From contig CAJYJO010000027.1 of assembly GCA_913774845.1 (NCBI GenBank), forward strand, positions 1 to 52,270: a stretch of 52,270 nt of DNA. The letters run 5' to 3'. This stretch comes from an uncultured Microbacterium sp. (GTDB taxonomy: Bacteria; Actinomycetota; Actinomycetes; Actinomycetales; Microbacteriaceae). This document shows, one piece after another, positions 8,209 to 49,612 of the stretch (the stretch's first letter is position 1; each line of letters begins with the position of its first letter). A model generated the notes under the pieces. The model had not been told where the DNA came from. It did no database searches and was given only the letters and a program-made list of their open reading frames with translations. The translations under genes and the position numbers were made by a program.

Positions 8209-9069
8209 ATGACCCTCCTCGTCACCGCCGCCTCCGGTCACCTCGGACGTCTCGTCGTCGACGCCCTCCTCGAGCGCGGCGTGCCGGCATCCGACATCGT
8301 CGCGGGTGCGCGCACCCCCGCCAAGGCCGACGACCTCGCCGCCCGCGGCGTCCGCGTCGTCGAGCTCGACTACGCCCGGCCCGAGACGTTCGGCCCCGCC
8401 CTCGAGGGCGTGACACGTGTGCTGCTCATCTCGGGCACCGAGCCCGACCGTGTCGCGCAGCACCGGTCGGTCGTCGACGCCGCCCGTGCCGCCGGCGTCG
8501 AGCGGCTCGTCTACACGAGCGCCCCGCGCGTCGACGAGGTCGACTACGCCCTCGGCGCAGATCACGAGGCCACCGAGCGGGCCATCGCCGAGTCGGGGGT
8601 GAGCGCCACGATCCTGCGCCACAACTGGTACACGGAGAACTACCTCGACGCCGTCGCTCGGGCCGCCGACACCGGTGAGATCGTCGCGGCGACCGGCGAC
8701 GCGCGCGTCGCGAGCGCAAGCCGTCGCGACTACGCCGAGGCCGCGGCCGTCGCCCTGACCACCGACGACCTGGCCGGGCGCACCGTCGAGGTGGGCGGCG
8801 ACGTCGCGTGGACCTACGACGAACTCGCCGAGGCCGCCGCCGAGGTGCTCGGGCAGCCGGTGACCTACACGCGGCTCTCGATCGAGCAGCTGACGGAGGG
8901 CCTGAAGGCGGCGGGTCTGGATGCCGGCACCGCGGCGTTCGTGGCCGGGATCGACGATGCGATCGCCCGCGGCGCGCTGGGGGAGACCGACGGTTCGCTG
9001 TCGCGCATCATCGGCCGCCCGACGACGCCGCTCGTCCAGGGCCTGCGCGAGGGTCTCGCCGCCCGCTGA
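8209..9069 (+). CDS. NmrA-type NAD(P)H-dependent oxidoreductase (QOR2-like)
   Basis: A 286-residue atypical SDR. The Rossmann loop TAASGHLGRLVVDALL lies at 5-20. It continues with VLLISGTE, RLVYTSAP and LRHNWYTENYL, the pattern of NmrA-like proteins and quinone oxidoreductase 2 (YtfG). Such enzymes reduce quinones or act as NADPH sensors. The ATG at 8209 follows GAAAGGA. It is divergent from an HxlR-type gene with shared candidate operators, a pairing known for quinone and aldehyde defence in other bacteria. Together with the FUSC exporter this may be a small detoxification module. Confidence 0.88.
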   Translation: MTLLVTAASGHLGRLVVDALLERGVPASDIVAGARTPAKADDLAARGVRVVELDYARPETFGPALEGVTRVLLISGTEPDRVAQHRSVVDAARAAGVERLVYTSAPRVDEVDYALGADHEATERAIAESGVSATILRHNWYTENYLDAVARAADTGEIVAATGDARVASASRRDYAEAAAVALTTDDLAGRTVEVGGDVAWTYDELAEAAAEVLGQPVTYTRLSIEQLTEGLKAAGLDAGTAAFVAGIDDAIARGALGETDGSLSRIIGRPTTPLVQGLREGLAAR

Positions 9070-9909: not shown

Positions 9910-11217
9910 ATGACAGCGCCCGCCGTCGACCATCGCCCGCTCGTCCACCACACCGGCTTCTGGTACTTCCCGATCGCCTTCGTGGCTCGCCTGCCCTTCG
10001 CGATGATGACGGTCGGCGTCCTGGCGCTCGTGGTCGCCCTGCGCGGGTCGGTCGCCCTCGGCGGCCTCACCTCCGCGGCCGTCGGGCTGGGCGTCGTCGT
10101 CGCCGGCCCCGTGATCGGCGACCTCGCGGACCGCTACGGGCAGCGGCGCGTGCTGCTGCCGGTGGGTCTGGCCAACGGCATCCTGTTGGCGCTCTTCCCC
10201 CTCGTGGTGGGGTACGCGACCTCCGACGTCCTGCTGCTCGGGGCGGCCGTGGCGATCGGGCTGACCGGTCCCCAGACCGCGGCGATGTCGCGCAGCCGCG
10301 TGATGGCGCTGATCGGTCTGCGCGTGCACCCCGCGCGGCGTGACCGTACCTTCTCGGGCGCCATGGCGTACGAGTCGGCGGCCGACGAGACCGCGTTCGT
10401 GATCGGTCCCTTCGTCGTCGGGGTGCTGGCGGCGGTGGTCGCCCCCTGGGCCCCGATCGTCGGGGCCGCGGTCCTCAGCTTCGTCTTCGTCACTGCCTTC
10501 GCCCTGCACCCCACGGGCCGCGCGGTTCCCGAACGTTCGGAGCGTACGGCGATGGCCCCCCTGCGCGAGGTGCTGCACCCGCGCGTGCTCGTGCTCGTGG
10601 CGGCCGTGTTCGGCGTCGGCCTGTTCTTCGGCTCGACGCTCACCTCGCTGACGGCGTTCATGGAGGCCCAGGGGGCGCCCGAGGCGGGGGCCCTCCTGTA
10701 CGGCGTGATGGGCGTGGGCTCGGCGGTGCTGGCCCTCGCGGTCGCCCTCGTCCCCGAACGCTTCGCCCTGCGCTGGCGCCTCGTCCTGTTCGCCAGCGTC
10801 CTGACGGCGTCCGCCGGGGCGTACACGGTCGGTGGATCCGTCGCGACGGTGACGCTGGTTCTGTGTCTGATGGGCGTCGGCGTCGGCCCCGCCCTCGTCA
10901 CGCTGTTCAGCCTGGCGGGGCACCGGGCCCCCCGCGGCCGGTCGGCCTCGACGATGACCATCCTCGCCTCGGCCCTGACCCTCGCTCAGGCCCTGTCGTC
11001 GGCGGTGACCGGCGCGGTGGCCGAGAACGTCTCCGTCGCCACCGCGATGCTGTTGCCCGCGGGGGCCGCTCTCCTCGTGCTCGCGATGGCGGCGGTGAAC
11101 GCCGCGGCCGCACCTCGGTGGGACCGGGCGTTCCCGCCGGCCGGGCTCAGCGCGGCAGCGGATACCGCCGCCGCAGCAGCAGACGCTGGGCCAGAGTCCA
11201 CGCGGTCGTCACGGTGA
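9910..11217 (+). CDS. Major facilitator superfamily transporter
   Basis: A 435-residue carrier with about twelve hydrophobic segments. GDLADRYGQRRVLLPVGL in the loop after the second or third helix is the MFS motif A (GxxxDRxGRR). The central cytoplasmic loop is short, with PTGRAVPERSERTA near 200-213. The substrate cannot be told; the fold resembles drug or metabolite exporters. The ATG follows TGGAGA. The last 71 bases overlap the end of the YidC-type gene on the other strand, so the Ala-rich C-terminal tail (about the last 24 residues) is encoded opposite another gene. Confidence 0.88.
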   Translation: MTAPAVDHRPLVHHTGFWYFPIAFVARLPFAMMTVGVLALVVALRGSVALGGLTSAAVGLGVVVAGPVIGDLADRYGQRRVLLPVGLANGILLALFPLVVGYATSDVLLLGAAVAIGLTGPQTAAMSRSRVMALIGLRVHPARRDRTFSGAMAYESAADETAFVIGPFVVGVLAAVVAPWAPIVGAAVLSFVFVTAFALHPTGRAVPERSERTAMAPLREVLHPRVLVLVAAVFGVGLFFGSTLTSLTAFMEAQGAPEAGALLYGVMGVGSAVLALAVALVPERFALRWRLVLFASVLTASAGAYTVGGSVATVTLVLCLMGVGVGPALVTLFSLAGHRAPRGRSASTMTILASALTLAQALSSAVTGAVAENVSVATAMLLPAGAALLVLAMAAVNAAAAPRWDRAFPPAGLSAAADTAAAAADAGPESTRSSR

Positions 11218-41894: not shown

Positions 41895-42271
41895 CGCGCG
41901 AGATCGCGATGGGCGGGGAATCCCTCGCCGGGAGGCCGATTCGGCGAGATATTTTCCTCGCCGCATCGGCCTCTCGTCGTCGATGCCGGGCGTGTGGACC
42001 GCGGCGCGTGGGCCCAGTCTGCGCGCCGTGATGGGAAAGGCCAGGTCCGAGGGCATAACCGCCCACGCCGTCGGGATGCCCTCGCGGAGACGGGAAGGCC
42101 ATTCGTGCCGACGTGTCCGGCCCGGGGCGATGCCGTCCGCTCTCACCGGTCTTCCAGGTAACGAAAAGATAACGCCCAGAACCAGCGCCCATGCTCGGGG
42201 CCCGTGCCGACCCGACGGCACGACCGCCGTGCTCGATCCCGACGAGCGCGCCCCCCGACGAAAGATCTCTT
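41895..42271. other. 377-base region before the transglycosylase-like gene
   Basis: No gene is supported. It holds the pgi hairpin (41933-41972) and, near 42150-42180, an A-rich stretch (TAACGAAAAGATAACG) that is the only A/T-rich spot and may be the promoter of the following gene. I looked for a c-di-AMP (ydaO-type) riboswitch, which often precedes actinobacterial wall-hydrolase genes, and did not see its core. Confidence 0.4.
41933..41972 (+). terminator. Hairpin terminator of pgi
   Basis: AGGCCGATTCGGCGAG (41933-41948) pairs with CTCGCCGCATCGGCCT (41957-41972), 16 bp with one mismatch and an A/T-rich 8-base loop. It lies 38 bases after the pgi stop. Confidence 0.65.
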
Positions 42272-43180
42272 TTGCTGCGTTCCGACATCAAACTCACCCA
42301 CGTCAACCGCGCCCGGCGCACCCTCGTCACCGCCGCCACCTGCGCCGGCCTCGCGTTCGGCATGGTCGCGACCACCGGTCTCGCGATCGCCGCCCCCGTG
42401 TCGCTCCCGGACGCCTCCGCCTCGTCGTTCTCCGGGCCCAGCTCGTCGGTGCCCGTCTCGACCGCGCCCACCCTCGACGCCGTAAGCACGGGCGCGGACA
42501 CCGCGCTCGATGGCGCCCACGCGGCGCTGTCCGACGCGAGCGCCGTGCAGGCCGACGTCGCCGCGACGGGTCTGCCGCTCTCGATCGGCGACGCCTCGAT
42601 CGATACGACCACGCTGCAGGATGCCGTGGACCGGCTGACCTCGCGCGACCTGTTGCCCGTGCTGCTCGTGCCCGCCCTGAGCCAGAACGCCGAGACCGAG
42701 GCCGAGCGCGTGAGCACGCGTGTCGCGGAGGTCAAGGGCAGCCTGGAGCAGGCGAAGGCCGAGAAGGCCGCCGCCGACGCCGCGGCCGAGGCGCAGCGAC
42801 AGGCCGAGGCCGCGGCTGCCGCGGAGGCGCAGCGTCAGGCCGACGCCGCCGCCGCGCTGGCCCGGGTCAACACCCGCGACGGCGCCAAGGCGTACGCGGC
42901 GCAGCTCGCGTCCGAGAAGTACGGCTGGGGGAGCGATCAGTTCTCGTGCCTCTCGTCGCTGTGGACCAAGGAGTCGGGCTGGAACTACCAGGCCTACAAC
43001 AACGACGGCGGCGCCACGGGTATCCCTCAGGCGCTCCCCGGCAGCAAGATGGCCACGTTCGGCGCCGACTGGCAGACGAACGCCGCCACGCAGATCGCGT
43101 GGGGCCTGGACTACATCTCTCGCGGGTACGGCACTCCCTGCAGCGCGTGGGGCCACTCGCAGGCGATGAACTGGTACTGA
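42272..43180 (+). CDS. Secreted aggregation-promoting-factor / transglycosylase-like protein (copy 1)
   Basis: A 302-residue exported wall protein. A signal peptide (TLVTAATCAGLAFGMVATTG, about 15-34, cleavage near AIA) is followed by a Ser/Ala/Asp region and an Ala-rich coiled coil (AEAQRQAEAAAAAEAQRQ). The C-terminal 80 residues are the lysozyme-like domain with SCLSSLWTKESGWNYQAY (catalytic-type Glu), GIPQALPGSKMA and GYISRGYGTPCSAWGHS. It is a paralog of the protein at 48620-49612, which starts MRSD; here the same place reads TTG CTG then RSD, so the start is TTG at 42272 or CTG at 42275. Likely a peptidoglycan hydrolase. Confidence 0.85.
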   Translation: MLRSDIKLTHVNRARRTLVTAATCAGLAFGMVATTGLAIAAPVSLPDASASSFSGPSSSVPVSTAPTLDAVSTGADTALDGAHAALSDASAVQADVAATGLPLSIGDASIDTTTLQDAVDRLTSRDLLPVLLVPALSQNAETEAERVSTRVAEVKGSLEQAKAEKAAADAAAEAQRQAEAAAAAEAQRQADAAAALARVNTRDGAKAYAAQLASEKYGWGSDQFSCLSSLWTKESGWNYQAYNNDGGATGIPQALPGSKMATFGADWQTNAATQIAWGLDYISRGYGTPCSAWGHSQAMNWY

Positions 43181-43901: not shown

Positions 43902-45599
43902 ATGACCGACGACGCCCTCATGAAGGCCCGCTACCGGCGGATCACGCGCTTCGCGGCGCGCTATCTGGTGCAGGCCTGGTGGTACGAGCTGTTCCTGCCG
44001 CGGTTCGGCCTCGGGTGGATCTCCGCCCGGGGCCGCACCCGCCGGCTCGAACGCATCGCGCAGCGGTTCCACGTGCTGGCGGTCGATCTGGGCGGCCTCA
44101 TGATCAAGGTCGGCCAGTTCATGTCGTCCCGCCTCGACGTGCTGCCACCCTCGATCACGAAGCAGCTCGAAGGGCTGCAGGACGAGGTGCCCGCGGTCCC
44201 GTTCAAGCAGATGCGCGCTCGCGCCGAGGCGGAGCTCGGGATGCCCTTGGAACGCGCTTTCGCGAGCGTCGACGAACGTCCCCTCGCGGCCGCCTCGCTG
44301 GGCCAGGCGCACCGAGCGATCCTGTCGGACGAGCTCGCCGCCGAGACCGGGCTGAGCGCGGTCGTCCTGAAGATCCAGCGCCCCGGGATCGATCGCATCG
44401 TCGACGTCGATCTGCGCGCCCTCCGCAAGGTCGGCGTCTGGCTCAGCAAGGTCGCCCTGGTCCGCGACCGCGTCGACATGCCCTCGCTCGTCGAGGAGTT
44501 CGCCGTCACGAGCCTCGAGGAGATCGACTACCTCCACGAGGCCGCGAACTCGGAGCGCTTCGCCGCCGATTTCGGGGGAGAGGGCGGTGTCGCGGTCCCC
44601 GATGTCGTCTGGGAACGCACCACCCGCCGCGTCCTCACCCTCCAGGACGTCACGGCGATCAAGATCAACGACGTCGACGCCCTCCGCGCGGCCGGCATCG
44701 ACCCCTCCGAGGTCGCCGCCCGCTTCGCGCGCGTGATGTTCGACCAGCTGTTCGACGACGGCTTCTTCCACGCCGACCCGCACCCCGGCAACGTCTTCGT
44801 GACCCCCCTCGGCACAACCACGGATGCCGGCACCCCGGCCTGGCGGTTCACCTTCATCGACTTCGGCATGATGGGCGAGGTTCCGCCGAGCCTGCGCCGC
44901 GGTCTGCGCCGCGTGCTCATCGCAGCCGCCTCCCGCGACGGGAAGGGCCTGGTCGACGGCATCCGGGATGTGGGCGTTCTGCTGCCCTCCGCCGACACCG
45001 TCCAGCTCGAGCGGGCCATGACGCAGCTGTTCTCGCGCTTCGGTGGCATGGGGTTCGCCGAACTGCAGGAGGTCGACCCGCGGGAGTTCCGCGCCTTCGC
45101 GATCGAGTTCGGCGACGTCGTGCGGTCCCTGCCGTTCCAGCTGCCCGAGAACTTCCTCCTCATCGTGCGGGCGATGTCGTTGACGAGCGGCATGTGCAGC
45201 GCGCTCGACCCGGCTTTCAACATCTGGGATGCCGTCGAGCCCTACGCCCAGCGCCTCATCCGCGAGGAGAGCGGCAACACCGCCCAGGCCTTCGTGCGCG
45301 AGGTGGGGGCGGTGGCCGTCGTCACCGCGCGCCTCCCGCGCCGCGCCGACAACCTCATCTCGCGTTTCGAGGACGGGTCGGTCTCGGTGCAGACGCCGCG
45401 CATCGAGAGACGCCTGCGCGATCTCGAGCGGATGATCCGCCGGGTGGTGTCGGCGGTGCTGTTCACGGGGCTCCTGATCGGCGGCATCCTCTTGCAGGGC
45501 GAACAGGCCGTGCTCGGCACCGTCCTCATGATCGCGTCGCTGGCGCCTCTGGCGCACGCGCTGCTCGCCGGTTTCGTGGCGCGCCGCAACGGCGCCTGA
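43902..45599 (+). CDS. AarF/UbiB (ABC1) family atypical kinase
   Basis: A 565-residue membrane-anchored atypical kinase of the ABC1/UbiB family. Typical stretches: IKVGQFMSSRLDVLP (KxGQ, about 67-81), the Ala-rich nucleotide loop PLAAASLGQAHRA, VVLKIQRPGI (ATP-site Lys), EIDYLHEAANSERF, FFHADPHPGNVFV (catalytic loop) and FIDFGMMGEV (DFG-like). Two hydrophobic helices end the chain (about 514-560). Family members support isoprenoid quinone synthesis or lipid homeostasis through ATPase activity. In menaquinone-using Actinobacteria the role is unclear. Co-transcribed with the PadR gene. Confidence 0.92.
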   Translation: MTDDALMKARYRRITRFAARYLVQAWWYELFLPRFGLGWISARGRTRRLERIAQRFHVLAVDLGGLMIKVGQFMSSRLDVLPPSITKQLEGLQDEVPAVPFKQMRARAEAELGMPLERAFASVDERPLAAASLGQAHRAILSDELAAETGLSAVVLKIQRPGIDRIVDVDLRALRKVGVWLSKVALVRDRVDMPSLVEEFAVTSLEEIDYLHEAANSERFAADFGGEGGVAVPDVVWERTTRRVLTLQDVTAIKINDVDALRAAGIDPSEVAARFARVMFDQLFDDGFFHADPHPGNVFVTPLGTTTDAGTPAWRFTFIDFGMMGEVPPSLRRGLRRVLIAAASRDGKGLVDGIRDVGVLLPSADTVQLERAMTQLFSRFGGMGFAELQEVDPREFRAFAIEFGDVVRSLPFQLPENFLLIVRAMSLTSGMCSALDPAFNIWDAVEPYAQRLIREESGNTAQAFVREVGAVAVVTARLPRRADNLISRFEDGSVSVQTPRIERRLRDLERMIRRVVSAVLFTGLLIGGILLQGEQAVLGTVLMIASLAPLAHALLAGFVARRNGA

Positions 45600-45630
45600 G
45601 GCCTTCCCGGGAGGACGGAGAACGCCTCCG

Positions 45631-45636
45631 TAGACT
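45631..45636 (+). promoter_or_regulatory. -10 box TAGACT of the helicase gene
   Basis: TAGACT is followed by six bases and the GTG at 45643. Leaderless start inferred; no ribosome binding site is present. Confidence 0.55.
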
Positions 45637-45642
45637 GGCTCC

Positions 45643-48615
45643 GTGCCGATCGACGCGAGCCGCCCCCTGCTCGGCTGGCGGTTCGACGGCTCGCTGCGCG
45701 CCTACCAGGCGGATGCCCTCGATCGTGTCGACGTCGACGCGGGGGAGCCGGTGCACCTGGTCGCCCCACCCGGGGCCGGCAAGACCCTGCTCGGTCTGCT
45801 GCTCGCCGCCCGTCGCGGCCGGCGGACGGTGGTGTTCGCGCCGACGACGGCGATCCGCGCGCAATGGGTGAGCGCCGCTCGCGCGCTCGCCCACGACGCC
45901 GCCGCCGCCGTGTCGGACGACCCCGCGAGCCCGGCGGATCTCACCGCCCTGACGTATCAGTCCGTGAGCGTCGTGCACTCGGGCGAGCCGTTCGGCGAGC
46001 TCGCTCGCGCCCGATGGGCCGCGGAGCTCGTCCAGGACGACCGCACTCCCGAGCAGGCCGACGACTGGCTCGTCGCTCTCCAGGAGAGCAATGCCGCGGC
46101 GTACGCCCGTGGCATCCGCTCCCGCTCCCGTGCCCTCCGTCGTTCCCTGGCGAGACAGGATGCCGCAGCCCTCACGGAGGCCCTGCATCCGAACGCCCGC
46201 GAGCTCCTCGATCGCCTCGTCGACGCCGGTGTCGAGACGATCGTGCTCGACGAGTGCCACCATCTCCTCGACCACTGGGCGCTGGTGGTCGCCGCCCTCG
46301 TGGCGCGGGTGCGAGCGAACGGCCGCGAGCCGCTCGTCATCGGCCTCACGGCCACCCTTCCCTCGCCCGACGACGCGAACGAGTACGAGAACTACGTCTC
46401 GTTGCTGGGCGAGGTCGACCTGGAGGTCCCGGTCCCGGCCGTGGTGCGTGAGGGCGACCTCGCTCCGTACCGCGATCTGGTCCACGTCGTCCGGCCGACC
46501 GACGAGGAGCTGGCCTTCCTCTCGGCCCACGCCGAGGCCCTCGCCGAGGCGCTGCAGACCACCTTCGCGGTGGGTTCCGGGCGCGCGTTCCTGCGCGATC
46601 TGCTCCAGCGGCCGGAGTCGGCGCGCGATACCGACCCGCTCCGTCCGCCCTCGGCGGCCCCCGGGGCCGCGCCGTCGGTCGAGGGCCGTGGTCGTCACCC
46701 GCGTGATCCGTCCGATGACGTCGATGCGGCTCTGACCGCGGCCTTCGCAGCCGATTTCGCCGGAGCCGAGGCGGCAGCGGCGATGTTCTCCATCGTCGCG
46801 CCCGACGACCCGCTCACCGCGCGCCTGCCGGCCGTCGCCCGCCGCGCACCCACGACCGAGGAGACGCTGCGCCTGCTCGGCCGTTTCGCCCTGGACCGGG
46901 TCCTTCCCGATCCGGAGCGCGCCGACGACTGGCAGCGGCTTCGTCGTCTCCTCGCGGATTTCGGCTTCGCCCTCACCGACCGGGGCGTGCGTCGCACGCG
47001 TGATCCGATCGACACGGTGCTGGCGTCGTCCGTGGCGAAGGACCGGGGAGCGTGCGACATCCTCGCCCGCGAGCGCGCCGAGCTCGGCGACCGCCTCCGC
47101 GCCCTCGTCGTCACCGACTTCGTCACCCACGGCAACGTGCACGGCGGTCTCCTCGGCGCGGCCGGAGCCGTTCGCACCTTCTCGATTGTGGCGACGGATG
47201 CCGAGACCTCGGCGCTGCGCTCGATCCTCGTCACGTCCTCGACGGTGCGCGTCGCGGGTCGGCACGCCGACACGGTCCTTCCCGCGTTGTCTCGAGAGCT
47301 CGGGTCGGACCTCACCGCGGAGCCCTGCTCCGACGACGCCGCCGCTCTCGAGGTCCGCGGGACCGCCGGTGCGGGCATCGTCGGCGCCGTCTCACGCCTT
47401 CTGTCCACCGGTGGTCTCGACGTGGTGGTCGGCACGCGCGGTCTCTTCGGCGAGGGCTGGGACTGCCCGGCGGTCAACACCTTAATCGACCTCACCGCAG
47501 TGGCCACGGCCTCGGCGACGCAGCAGCTGCGCGGGCGCACCCTGCGGCTCGACCCCGCGTGGCCCGAGAAGGTGGCCCACAACTGGACGGTCACGGCACT
47601 GCTCCCGCCCACGTCCCCTCTCGACGCGCAACCGGATGCCGCTCGCCTGCGCCGCAAGCACGCGTCGCTGTGGGGGCTCGACACCGACCACCCCGGCCGC
47701 ATCGTGCGCGGTCTGGAGGCCGCGCTCACGCACGATCGACGCGTCGCCCTCGACGAGGTGCTCGCCAAGGCACCGGGGTCGTCGCTGGACGGGGTGGACG
47801 GTCTGTCTGCCGTCCCGCCCCGGGCCGACACCCGCTCCGCGTGGCACGTCGGCAGCCCCTACGACGACCGGGAGGAGATCTCCGCCGTCGTGGAGCGTCC
47901 CGCTCGGACGCCCGTCTTCACGACGTCGGTGGTCGCGACGCGCGCGCTGGAGAGCTGGTCCGCCGCCGCTGTCGCCGGGCCCGCCGCGCTCCTGGCCGTC
48001 TCGTTCCTCCTCCCGCTGCCCGCTGGCGCGGTGCTGGGAGGCCTGAGCGCGCTGGTCGGCGCCGTCTTCTCGCCGCCCCTCGTCGCGGCGTGGCGACGAA
48101 CCCGTCGACAGGTCCGCGATGCCCCCGCGACGCTCGAGAACATCGCCCGGGTGATCTGGACGGCGCTGTCGGAGAGCGGGCGCGTGCACTCCTCGGCCGC
48201 TGCCCCGACGCTCGTCGTCGAGCAGGGGGATGCCGGCACCATCCGCGCCGACGTGCGCATCCCGGAGGCCGGCCTCGCCGATCAACGCGCGTTCGGGGCA
48301 GCCCTCGGGGAGGTGTGCGGGCCGATCCGAACTCCGCGTTTCGTACTCGAGATCGACCGCGGGGGAGGTCCCTGGTGGGTGCGCCGCGTCCTCGAGCGAG
48401 CGGGGCGCTCGCGTCCTCGCCACTTCGTCGCGGTACCCGCGGAGATCGGTCGTCGTCGCGTCGACGCCCTCCGCTTCCACGGTGCGTGGCAGGTCCACGT
48501 CGGGCCTGCCACGCTGCACGAGCTCGCGGGTCCGGAGAACCTCGCGCTGCTCGCACGAGCGCGCCGCACCGGAGGATTCTCCGGAGCGGCGCGCTCGGTC
48601 ATGCGGTGGAGCTGA
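45643..48615 (+). CDS. SF2 DEAD/DEAH-type helicase with C-terminal membrane hairpin
   Basis: A 990-residue protein with a complete superfamily 2 motor: Walker A APPGAGKT (41-48), DECHH (203-207), GLTATLP (234-240), VVVGTRGLFGEGWDCP (594-609) and motif VI QQLRGRTLR (627-635). A variable insert (about 320-480) separates the two RecA lobes. After the motor come two adjacent hydrophobic helices (about 774-793 and 795-814) and a 170-residue C-terminal domain (TLVVEQGDAG, PIRTPRFVLEIDRGGGPWWV) that I do not recognise. No nuclease motif is seen. A helicase tied to the membrane is unusual. It begins at a GTG with a leaderless-type promoter. Possible roles include DNA uptake or transfer, or defence, none shown. 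Confidence 0.85.
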   Translation: MPIDASRPLLGWRFDGSLRAYQADALDRVDVDAGEPVHLVAPPGAGKTLLGLLLAARRGRRTVVFAPTTAIRAQWVSAARALAHDAAAAVSDDPASPADLTALTYQSVSVVHSGEPFGELARARWAAELVQDDRTPEQADDWLVALQESNAAAYARGIRSRSRALRRSLARQDAAALTEALHPNARELLDRLVDAGVETIVLDECHHLLDHWALVVAALVARVRANGREPLVIGLTATLPSPDDANEYENYVSLLGEVDLEVPVPAVVREGDLAPYRDLVHVVRPTDEELAFLSAHAEALAEALQTTFAVGSGRAFLRDLLQRPESARDTDPLRPPSAAPGAAPSVEGRGRHPRDPSDDVDAALTAAFAADFAGAEAAAAMFSIVAPDDPLTARLPAVARRAPTTEETLRLLGRFALDRVLPDPERADDWQRLRRLLADFGFALTDRGVRRTRDPIDTVLASSVAKDRGACDILARERAELGDRLRALVVTDFVTHGNVHGGLLGAAGAVRTFSIVATDAETSALRSILVTSSTVRVAGRHADTVLPALSRELGSDLTAEPCSDDAAALEVRGTAGAGIVGAVSRLLSTGGLDVVVGTRGLFGEGWDCPAVNTLIDLTAVATASATQQLRGRTLRLDPAWPEKVAHNWTVTALLPPTSPLDAQPDAARLRRKHASLWGLDTDHPGRIVRGLEAALTHDRRVALDEVLAKAPGSSLDGVDGLSAVPPRADTRSAWHVGSPYDDREEISAVVERPARTPVFTTSVVATRALESWSAAAVAGPAALLAVSFLLPLPAGAVLGGLSALVGAVFSPPLVAAWRRTRRQVRDAPATLENIARVIWTALSESGRVHSSAAAPTLVVEQGDAGTIRADVRIPEAGLADQRAFGAALGEVCGPIRTPRFVLEIDRGGGPWWVRRVLERAGRSRPRHFVAVPAEIGRRRVDALRFHGAWQVHVGPATLHELAGPENLALLARARRTGGFSGAARSVMRWS

Positions 48616-48619
48616 GGGC

Positions 48620-49612
48620 TCAGTACCAGCCGGTCGACTGGGAGTGGCCCCAGGCGCCGCACGGCGTCCCGTAACGACCCGAGATGTAGCCGAGTCCCCA
48701 CGAGATCTGCGTGGCGGCGTTGGTCTCCCAGTCGGCACCGGCCGACGACATCTTGCTGCCCGGCAGGGCCTGCGGGATGCCGTAGGCGCCGCTGCCGGCG
48801 TTGTAGGCGCGGTAGTTCCAGCCCGACTCCTTGTTCCAGAGCGAGACGAGGCACGAGAACTGGTCGTCGCCCCAGCCGCGGCCGGCGAGCATGTCCCGCG
48901 CGGTCGCCTGTGCGCCCGCGACGCTGTTGTCGCCCGAGCCGCCCCCAGAGGGGAAGGGAGCCGACGATCCGCCGCCTCCGCTGCTGCCGGAGCTCGACGA
49001 GGACGCGGCCTTCTCGGCGGCGGCCTTCTCTGCGGCCGCCTTCGCGGCGGCGGCTTCGGCCTCCTGGCGCGCCTTCTCGGCGGCCTCTTCCTCCGCCTTC
49101 TTGGCGACCGCGGCGTCGAGTCCTCCGCGCAGTTCGGCGACACGCTGGTCGACCGAGGCGGAGGCCGCGGCGACCTCTTCGGCGAGGGCGGGCAGGAACG
49201 TTTCCGGCAGGGTCGAGGCCGCCTCGAGGCGGTCCGTCGCCTGCTGCAGAGCGGCGGTGTCGACCGTGGCGGGCTGACCGATGTCGAGACCGGATGCCGC
49301 GATGTCGTTCTGCACGCTCGCGGCGGCCTGCATCGAGGTGGAGGCGGCGGTCTCCGCCGTCTCGGCCTGCGTCTTCTCGGGGCCGGGGGGAGCGGCGAGG
49401 ACGGTGGGGGTGATCGAGGAAGCGAGCGAGAACCTCGCCGTCGACAGGTCGGTGGGGGAGGCGGTGGCGGCCGGCGCGGTGCCGGTGAGAGCCGCGGCCG
49501 CGACCACGCCGAGCACGAGCGCTCCCACGGTCGTCACGGGGCGACGACGAGTGCGGCGGGCGGCGAGGCGGCGGTCACGACGATTGGAGGAGGACGTCGA
49601 GTCAGAGCGCAT
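48620..49612 (-). CDS. Secreted aggregation-promoting-factor / transglycosylase-like protein (copy 2)
   Basis: A 330-residue exported wall protein, paralog of the one at 42272-43180. Signal peptide about 25-52 (VTTVGALVLGVVAAAALTG, cleavage near ATA). Then a helical region, an Ala/Glu/Lys coiled coil (AEKARQEAEAAAAKAAAEKA), a Ser/Gly linker and the C-terminal lysozyme-like domain with SCLVSLWNKESGWNYRAY, GIPQALPGSKMS and RYGTPCGAWGHSQ. The two cysteines match those of copy 1. It ends four bases from the helicase stop. The ATG at 49612 has no good ribosome binding site; an AACCGGTT palindrome (49615-49622) lies just before it. Confidence 0.88.
   Translation of the reverse strand: MRSDSTSSSNRRDRRLAARRTRRRPVTTVGALVLGVVAAAALTGTAPAATASPTDLSTARFSLASSITPTVLAAPPGPEKTQAETAETAASTSMQAAASVQNDIAASGLDIGQPATVDTAALQQATDRLEAASTLPETFLPALAEEVAAASASVDQRVAELRGGLDAAVAKKAEEEAAEKARQEAEAAAAKAAAEKAAAEKAASSSSSGSSGGGGSSAPFPSGGGSGDNSVAGAQATARDMLAGRGWGDDQFSCLVSLWNKESGWNYRAYNAGSGAYGIPQALPGSKMSSAGADWETNAATQISWGLGYISGRYGTPCGAWGHSQSTGWY

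Follow-up and report, generated by a model that had tools for sequence, protein, structure and literature searches.

The locus considered here raises a simple question: why should a nucleic acid motor carry what looks like a membrane anchor? It lies in a 52,270-nucleotide stretch of DNA from an uncultured Microbacterium sp. (contig CAJYJO010000027.1; hereafter the window), which is the entire contig C27 of a 3.37 Mb genome in 55 contigs, and it encodes a predicted superfamily 2 (SF2) helicase. SF2 motors are usually soluble. The original prediction, made from the sequence alone, proposed a full SF2 motor followed by two hydrophobic helices and a C-terminal region without a familiar motif, and suggested a part in defence or DNA transfer. 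Our analysis gives good support to a conserved, stand-alone, membrane-tethered predicted SF2 motor with an unrecognised C-terminal domain, and we infer that it acts on nucleic acid at the membrane. The best explanation, to which we assign a probability of about 0.4, is that the protein belongs to a hitherto undescribed family of SF2 motors that stand alone and are tethered to the membrane, with defence or plasmid control as the last step of the reading.

Motor, hairpin and C-terminal domain

The motor is supported by sequence and by modelling. Helicase motifs I, II, III, V, and VI occur in SF2 order, and nearly all of their positions (the exceptions are A45 and T633) are invariant in an alignment of the window protein with 17 Microbacterium homologues (A1, 18 sequences). 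In the window protein, Pfam DEAD (41.6 bits) and ResIII (40.3 bits against a cut-off of 22.5) score over their cut-offs, Helicase_C falls under its own (17.7 against 23.5), and ResIII is matched by all 23 relatives; a scan against NCBIfam returned no model at its own cut-off. A profile search of the PDB places XPB first, followed by SF2 helicases that include RadD, Brr2, and RIG-I-like proteins. The full-length AlphaFold2 model (mean predicted local distance difference test (pLDDT) 70, predicted template modelling score (pTM) 0.43) contains two RecA-like folds, the second partly below pLDDT 50, with an insert of some 240 residues between them. Foldseek with this model gave 26 matches at E ≤ 0.001, led by XPB and RIG-I and including Pol theta and RECQL5; RadD lies slightly above E 0.001, and Mtr4 and Ski2 are also among the structural matches. 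These results support an SF2 motor with two RecA folds, similar to XPB, RadD, and ResIII, and so bear out the full motor of the original prediction. The start codon is at or close to the same site in most of 21 Microbacterium homologues examined, and the same genome holds one further match to the helicase, which is short (E 9.5e-4). The ratio of non-synonymous to synonymous substitution rates (dN/dS) over the whole gene is 0.14–0.28 in eight pairs, which supports purifying selection on the helicase where it is present. When the gene is divided into five parts, a RecA fold is the tightest in seven of the eight pairs and the hairpin the loosest in five, reaching 0.94 in one.

The evaluation of the hairpin is more difficult. 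Residues 771–817 contain no D, E, K, R, N, Q, or H, and just one other (9910-11217) of the 39 called window genes longer than 200 aa has an equally long stretch of this kind. The two segments of the window protein are moderate, with mean Kyte–Doolittle (KD) values of 2.02 and 1.80 over 19 residues and rough insertion energies of +2.6 and +3.1 kcal/mol, so insertion is unproven by that protein alone. The segments are often more hydrophobic in relatives. In our tree set (49 rows including the window protein, with two identical rows and many from one genus), a hydrophobic stretch with a 19-residue KD mean of at least 1.5 occurs at the homologous place in 46 rows, from Actinomycetota to Bacillota. 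Both of the best 17-residue segments reach 1.4 in 45 rows (the exceptions are L116, L117, L133, and L153), and in these the lysine plus arginine content per residue is 0.14 in the 15 residues before the hairpin, 0.05 in the loop, and 0.27 in the 15 residues after it. The loops average 8.5 residues and 32 of the 45 have neither lysine nor arginine; as loops are shorter than flanks, raw counts exaggerate the contrast, whereas per-residue rates do not. Two membrane-length segments with positive-inside flanks are thus a feature of the family as a whole and are moderate in the window protein taken singly. The charge pattern agrees with the positive-inside rule if both termini of the hairpin lie in the cytosol, and the motor and the C-terminal domain should both face the cytosol. 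AlphaFold2 places two long helices here (residues 761–787 and 792–825), and the C-terminal piece modelled alone has a mean pLDDT of 84 and a pTM of 0.80. Taken together, sequence and model indicate that a built-in hairpin very probably anchors the helicase in the membrane.

It could be argued that the protein is a soluble helicase whose hydrophobic stretches form the buried core of a domain, a case that the original prediction had raised against itself. The window segments are indeed rich in alanine and glycine as well as moderate in hydrophobicity, three of the 49 rows lack the segments yet keep a full open frame, and the pair with a dN/dS of 0.94 shows little constraint on the hairpin. Against this, segments are stronger in many relatives, the flanks show the positive-inside bias with most loops free of lysine and arginine, the AlphaFold2 models have long helices, and the entire hairpin can be absent while the C-terminal domain stays. 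Charge bias, conservation, and model all favour a membrane hairpin, and we regard a soluble protein as very improbable.

The three rows that lack the hairpin are L116 and L117, from one genus, and L153, from Tritonibacter. Presence and absence of the hairpin imply at least two changes on a quick, midpoint-rooted helicase tree in which 12 of the 45 inner branches are open and L153 sits on a long branch; we infer loss rather than gain in these rows. As they retain the C-terminal domain, hairpin and C-terminal domain are separable. We note that in L117 a called ORF (open reading frame) of 103 residues (8447-8758) with, by eye, one hydrophobic segment immediately precedes the hairpin-less helicase and might serve as a membrane anchor in trans; in L116, which likewise lacks the hairpin, the upstream gene encodes prolyl-tRNA synthetase.

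The C-terminal domain is 164 residues long and is modelled by AlphaFold2 as a helix followed by an alpha/beta fold. Among 19 diverse members, P932 is conserved in all, R899 and R974 in 18, P894 and G954 in 17, and P898 and V931 in 16. The domain is found in three phyla, Actinomycetota, Bacillota (Paenibacillus), and Pseudomonadota (Tritonibacter), and on two gut contigs; the Paenibacillus relative is annotated merely as "DEAD/DEAH box helicase family protein". A search of PDB sequences gave no match at E ≤ 1, and Pfam gave no credible one (four unrelated families with one member each, best E 0.053); PHROGs gave none at E ≤ 0.001 for the two members scanned, and Foldseek with the C-terminal piece none under E 0.6 against PDB and BFVD. 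It is therefore a conserved domain whose fold is unrecognised by the databases searched, as the original prediction had supposed, and none of the known soluble accessory domains matched it. No set of catalytic residues is evident by eye, which makes a binding role more likely. The features of the gene and its slot are collected in Table 1.

Table 1. Coordinates in the window of the helicase gene, its parts, and the edges of its slot
Feature	Coordinates	Strand	Basis or remark
Left slot edge: gap from AarF-like stop to helicase start	45600..45642		Slot empty in L142, L143, L145, L146
SF2 helicase ORF, 990 aa, GTG start	45643..48615	+	Stop codon 48613-48615
Walker A / motif I APPGAGKT, aa 41-48	45763..45786	+	P43, G44, G46, K47, T48 invariant in 23/23 rows (alignment A2)
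Motif II DECHH, aa 203-207	46249..46263	+	D203, E204, H206, H207 invariant in 23/23 rows (A2)
Motif III GLTATLP, aa 234-240	46342..46362	+	L235, T236, A237, T238, P240 invariant in 23/23 rows (A2)
Mostly helical insert separating the two RecA folds, aa 245-484	46375..47094	+	AlphaFold2 secondary structure, low confidence in places
Motif V region GTRGLFGEGWDCP, aa 597-609	47431..47469	+	Sequence and alignment A2
Motif VI QQLRGRTLR, aa 627-635	47521..47547	+	Sequence and alignment A2
Predicted hydrophobic hairpin, aa 771-817; segments ~774-792 and 794-815, then RRTRRQVR	47953..48093	+	Composition, AlphaFold2, family alignment
Predicted C-terminal alpha/beta domain, aa 827-990	48121..48612	+	Conserved P-R-[FY]-L, V-P, G, and R positions; without credible known match
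Right slot edge: 4 bases from helicase stop to convergent wall-protein gene	48616..48619		ORF coordinates and empty-site comparison

A single variable gene at a conserved locus

In the window clade, the gene order is pgi, wall protein 1, PadR, AarF-like, helicase, wall protein 2 (reversed), and rpsA. We fetched the loci of eight relatives that have the AarF-like gene and lack a match to the helicase. Four, with AarF-like 92–93% identical (L142, L143, L145, and L146), retain this gene content and order but for the helicase, in place of which there are some 180–360 bp. In L144 (AarF-like 88%), other genes occupy the slot, and in the remaining three (L147–L149) a comparable arrangement is not visible within the stretch. 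The original prediction had named the PadR and AarF-type genes and the two wall-protein paralogues as the only neighbours; the genes are real, and as candidate partners we rejected them, since four relatives keep them without the helicase and they therefore form no unit with it. The presence or absence, whether through gain or loss, concerns one single gene at a conserved locus. Foreign composition was also considered and gave no signal: the GC content of the helicase is 0.740 against 0.714 for the window, and its GC content at third codon positions is 0.874 against a mean of 0.884 (sd 0.052).

Some further features of the locus may be recorded here. The segment of L144 (5391-8973) that corresponds to the window slot (45599-48620) holds, by eye, radical-SAM-like (S-adenosylmethionine) and Lgt-like ORFs, and the slot between the AarF-like and second wall-protein genes is perhaps a small insertion hotspot. 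L144 also has, by eye, a pair of genes resembling MFS (major facilitator superfamily) and TetR proteins between wall protein and rpsA. The wall-protein paralogues (42191-43180 and 48620-49612) face each other across the PadR, AarF-like, and helicase block; both have an aggregation-promoting-factor C-terminal domain and both persist in the four empty-site genomes. Beyond rpsA, a complete relative (L125, 15253-20000, the sole relative scanned there) has an rRNA operon, which probably accounts for the similar end points of the window and several related assemblies.

The gene is carried by 47 of 247 Microbacterium genomes, by 4 of 199 in a sample of the family, by 23 of 396 in a sample of the order (8 of 109 genera), and by 3 of 296 in a sample of the phylum. 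The window's own genome is included in each count, and the counts are lower bounds because scoring was restricted to the few top candidates in each genome. In five of the 47 carriers (G580, G614, G658, G669, and G712), the gene is split over frames or interrupted by a stop, possibly through assembly error. Scans of viral contigs gave, among the matches listed, partial helicase matches only, and two further scans were empty, so no clear full-length relative was found there; two unannotated gut contigs, filed as phage, do bear full-length relatives. A copy on a Rhodovulum plasmid (L154, 8486-11183) is annotated as three pieces and may for that reason be a decaying gene; an IS3 transposase lies about 7 kb from it.

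In other lineages the helicase is found at differing places, and the largest cluster of neighbours, the helicase itself aside, is common to 9 of 48 loci. DUF222 is matched by two neighbours of helicase copies. As partners we also tried and rejected the large ORFs immediately upstream in L110 and L112: these are dissimilar, neither Pfam nor PADLOC matches them at E ≤ 1e-5, and they may thus be wrong-frame calls. Other neighbours prompt the suggestion that the protein is an RNA helicase acting on mRNA or stable RNA close to the membrane. Prolyl-tRNA synthetase adjoins the copies in L116 (by Pfam) and L117 (by eye), a valyl-tRNA-synthetase-like ORF is seen by eye in L115, a release-factor gene adjoins the copy in L107, and the window clade has rpsA followed, in one relative, by the rRNA operon; RIG-I, Mtr4, and Ski2 among the structural matches point the same way. 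However, translation genes are common as chance neighbours, their positions vary by lineage, and no RNA-binding domain is recognised in the protein. We consider such a role distinctly unlikely.

A possible defence role and the Wadjet association

Two observations speak for defence. One is the patchy presence of the gene at an otherwise conserved locus. The other comes from another genus of the order (g285), in which 18 of 57 genomes have the helicase and 50 have JetA of the Wadjet system. In 16 of the 18 carriers, the helicase lies no more than 14 kb from JetA, in two arrangements. In the first (nine carriers), 81–139 bp separate the end of the helicase match from the JetA match that follows on the same strand; in the second (seven carriers), JetA is about 7–14 kb upstream, again on the same strand. 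Six loci of the second arrangement were fetched: in five, an MFS gene follows JetABCD and the helicase comes next, no more than one ORF away, and in L108 eight ORFs separate the MFS gene from the helicase, with the Jet genes outside the stretch. The neighbour set of L113 was confirmed as a full JetABCD. The two carriers without a nearby JetA are G738, with no JetA match, and G977, where JetA is on a different contig. On the helicase tree, which holds nine of the 18 carriers, the two arrangements are two separate supported clades; the helicase thus either arrived next to Wadjet on two occasions or crossed from one side of it to the other. We regard the adjacency as suggestive, not as proof. In g285, the helicase is found on either side of the Wadjet cassette, and in ten non-carrier loci these two sites hold other genes or nothing (L113, L118, L124, L163, and L164 were compared with L109, L114, L119, L165, and L166), so that a hotspot around the cassette is possible.

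An adjacency of this kind would also be expected if the helicase were an accessory subunit of Wadjet that has since separated from it in Microbacterium. This proposal accounts for the 16 carriers with JetA nearby, above all the nine on the same strand with 81–139 bp between the matches, but 33 of the 50 JetA-positive g285 genomes have no helicase, 15 of the 47 Microbacterium carriers have no JetA match, and helicase and JetA are never close on shared Microbacterium contigs. It is improbable, and we rank it below the RNA helicase. At the window locus, a scan of five proteins, the helicase and four of its neighbours, did not find JetABCD together and gave one weak JetC match (E 0.0056); the JetA (DUF3375) match of the window's own genome is on contig C9 (11765-13150).

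Several observations weigh against a defence function. Using PADLOC 2.0.0, no system model covers most of the window protein, the best being PbeA at 22 bits over residues 17–89 of the motor; among 23 relatives the best is again PbeA (E 4.2e-14), and the partner families of PbeA are absent from the PADLOC tally of scanned neighbours. At E ≤ 1e-10, that tally holds only PDC-S48 (2), DEDDh (2), JetD (1), RTasRmuC (1), and mad3 (1) in 131 neighbours (147 were listed and 16 left out; with no random-gene control set, these figures speak for enrichment neither way), and the JetD match stems from a known Wadjet locus. Pfam matches and inspection by eye identify many neighbours as housekeeping genes (25 of 117 families inspected in one listing). 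By this tally, and with g285 as the exception, the surroundings of the helicase do not look like a defence island. The Wadjet adjacency was seen in one genus and so represents few independent events. Within g285, co-occurrence with JetA is not significant (17 of 18 carriers against 33 of 39 others, p 0.41). In Microbacterium, JetA is found in 32 of 47 carriers and in 76 of 200 genomes without the helicase (Fisher p 2.7e-4, uncorrected for kinship); JetA is common (50 of 57 genomes in g285, 108 of 247 in Microbacterium), which makes clade effects possible, and in the 16 Microbacterium genomes with both on one contig the distance is 120–844 kb. The defence function put forward in the original prediction thus keeps the patchy locus and the adjacency in one genus, and lacks any PADLOC assignment and more than a few defence neighbours. 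Defence is a plausible but weakly supported role.

With these points in mind, we suggest how a membrane-tethered motor might work. The two-helix hairpin would hold the SF2 motor at the membrane with both ends in the cytosol, and the motor, driven by ATP hydrolysis, would translocate on nucleic acid held at the cytosolic membrane surface or unwind it, with the C-terminal domain recognising a substrate or a partner. With less confidence, we suggest that the purpose may be defence of the genome against incoming DNA, plasmid or phage, alongside Wadjet in one genus. As no nuclease domain is recognised, destruction of the DNA would need another enzyme, or else the helicase would block or strip the DNA. 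A bolder form of this proposal is a new class of SF2 motors, tethered to the membrane and present in at least three phyla, which catch nucleic acid at the membrane's inner side through a new C-terminal domain and act as one-gene defence modules, in some bacteria cooperating with the plasmid-clearing Wadjet machine; we hold that form to be doubtful. Whatever the function, a conserved and occasionally missing hairpin, joined to an unrecognised domain in three phyla, is a natural experiment on the tethering of a motor, and because the site is naturally empty in close relatives, function could be tested directly by adding or removing the gene.

Comparison with known systems

We recognised no description of such a protein in the available literature, a search that left most subscription papers and preprints outside and so is not proof of absence; the passages of PMC10853773 and PMC11090510 available to us do not describe one. 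Of the defence systems, Wadjet type I (JetABCD) is a neighbour of the helicase in one genus, and the proteins themselves are different. PbeA, a PADLOC defence helicase, shows weak similarity to the motor, which in the window protein is limited to residues 17–89. The likeness to the ResIII family (PF04851), the motors of type I and III restriction enzymes, is over the Pfam cut-off. Unlike a type III restriction enzyme, the window protein has no nuclease or methylase domain recognised by Pfam, and a Mod methylase partner is absent among the five scanned neighbours (AarF-like, PadR, the two wall proteins, and rpsA).

The closest relatives of the motor in sequence and fold include XPB and RadD, and it could therefore belong to a helicase of DNA repair or recombination, tethered to the membrane, that supplements the housekeeping set and has no part in defence; the many housekeeping neighbours would agree with this. 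The family models do not: NCBIfam XPB (NF045503) scores 29.9 bits against a cut-off of 610 and RadD (NF053632) 13.5 bits against 720, and the presence of the gene is patchy even between close relatives. We think a repair function unlikely and retain the stand-alone membrane-tethered motor, with defence or plasmid control as its tentative last step, as the preferred reading. The motor is related to that of RadD / YejH (PDB 6jde, 7r7j), and it shares with the XPB / Rad25 helicases (PDB 6p4o, 2fwr), which are among its top sequence and Foldseek matches, the architecture of two RecA folds. The sequence similarity to XPB is confined to this motor, and the predicted membrane hairpin and the C-terminal domain are features of the window protein.

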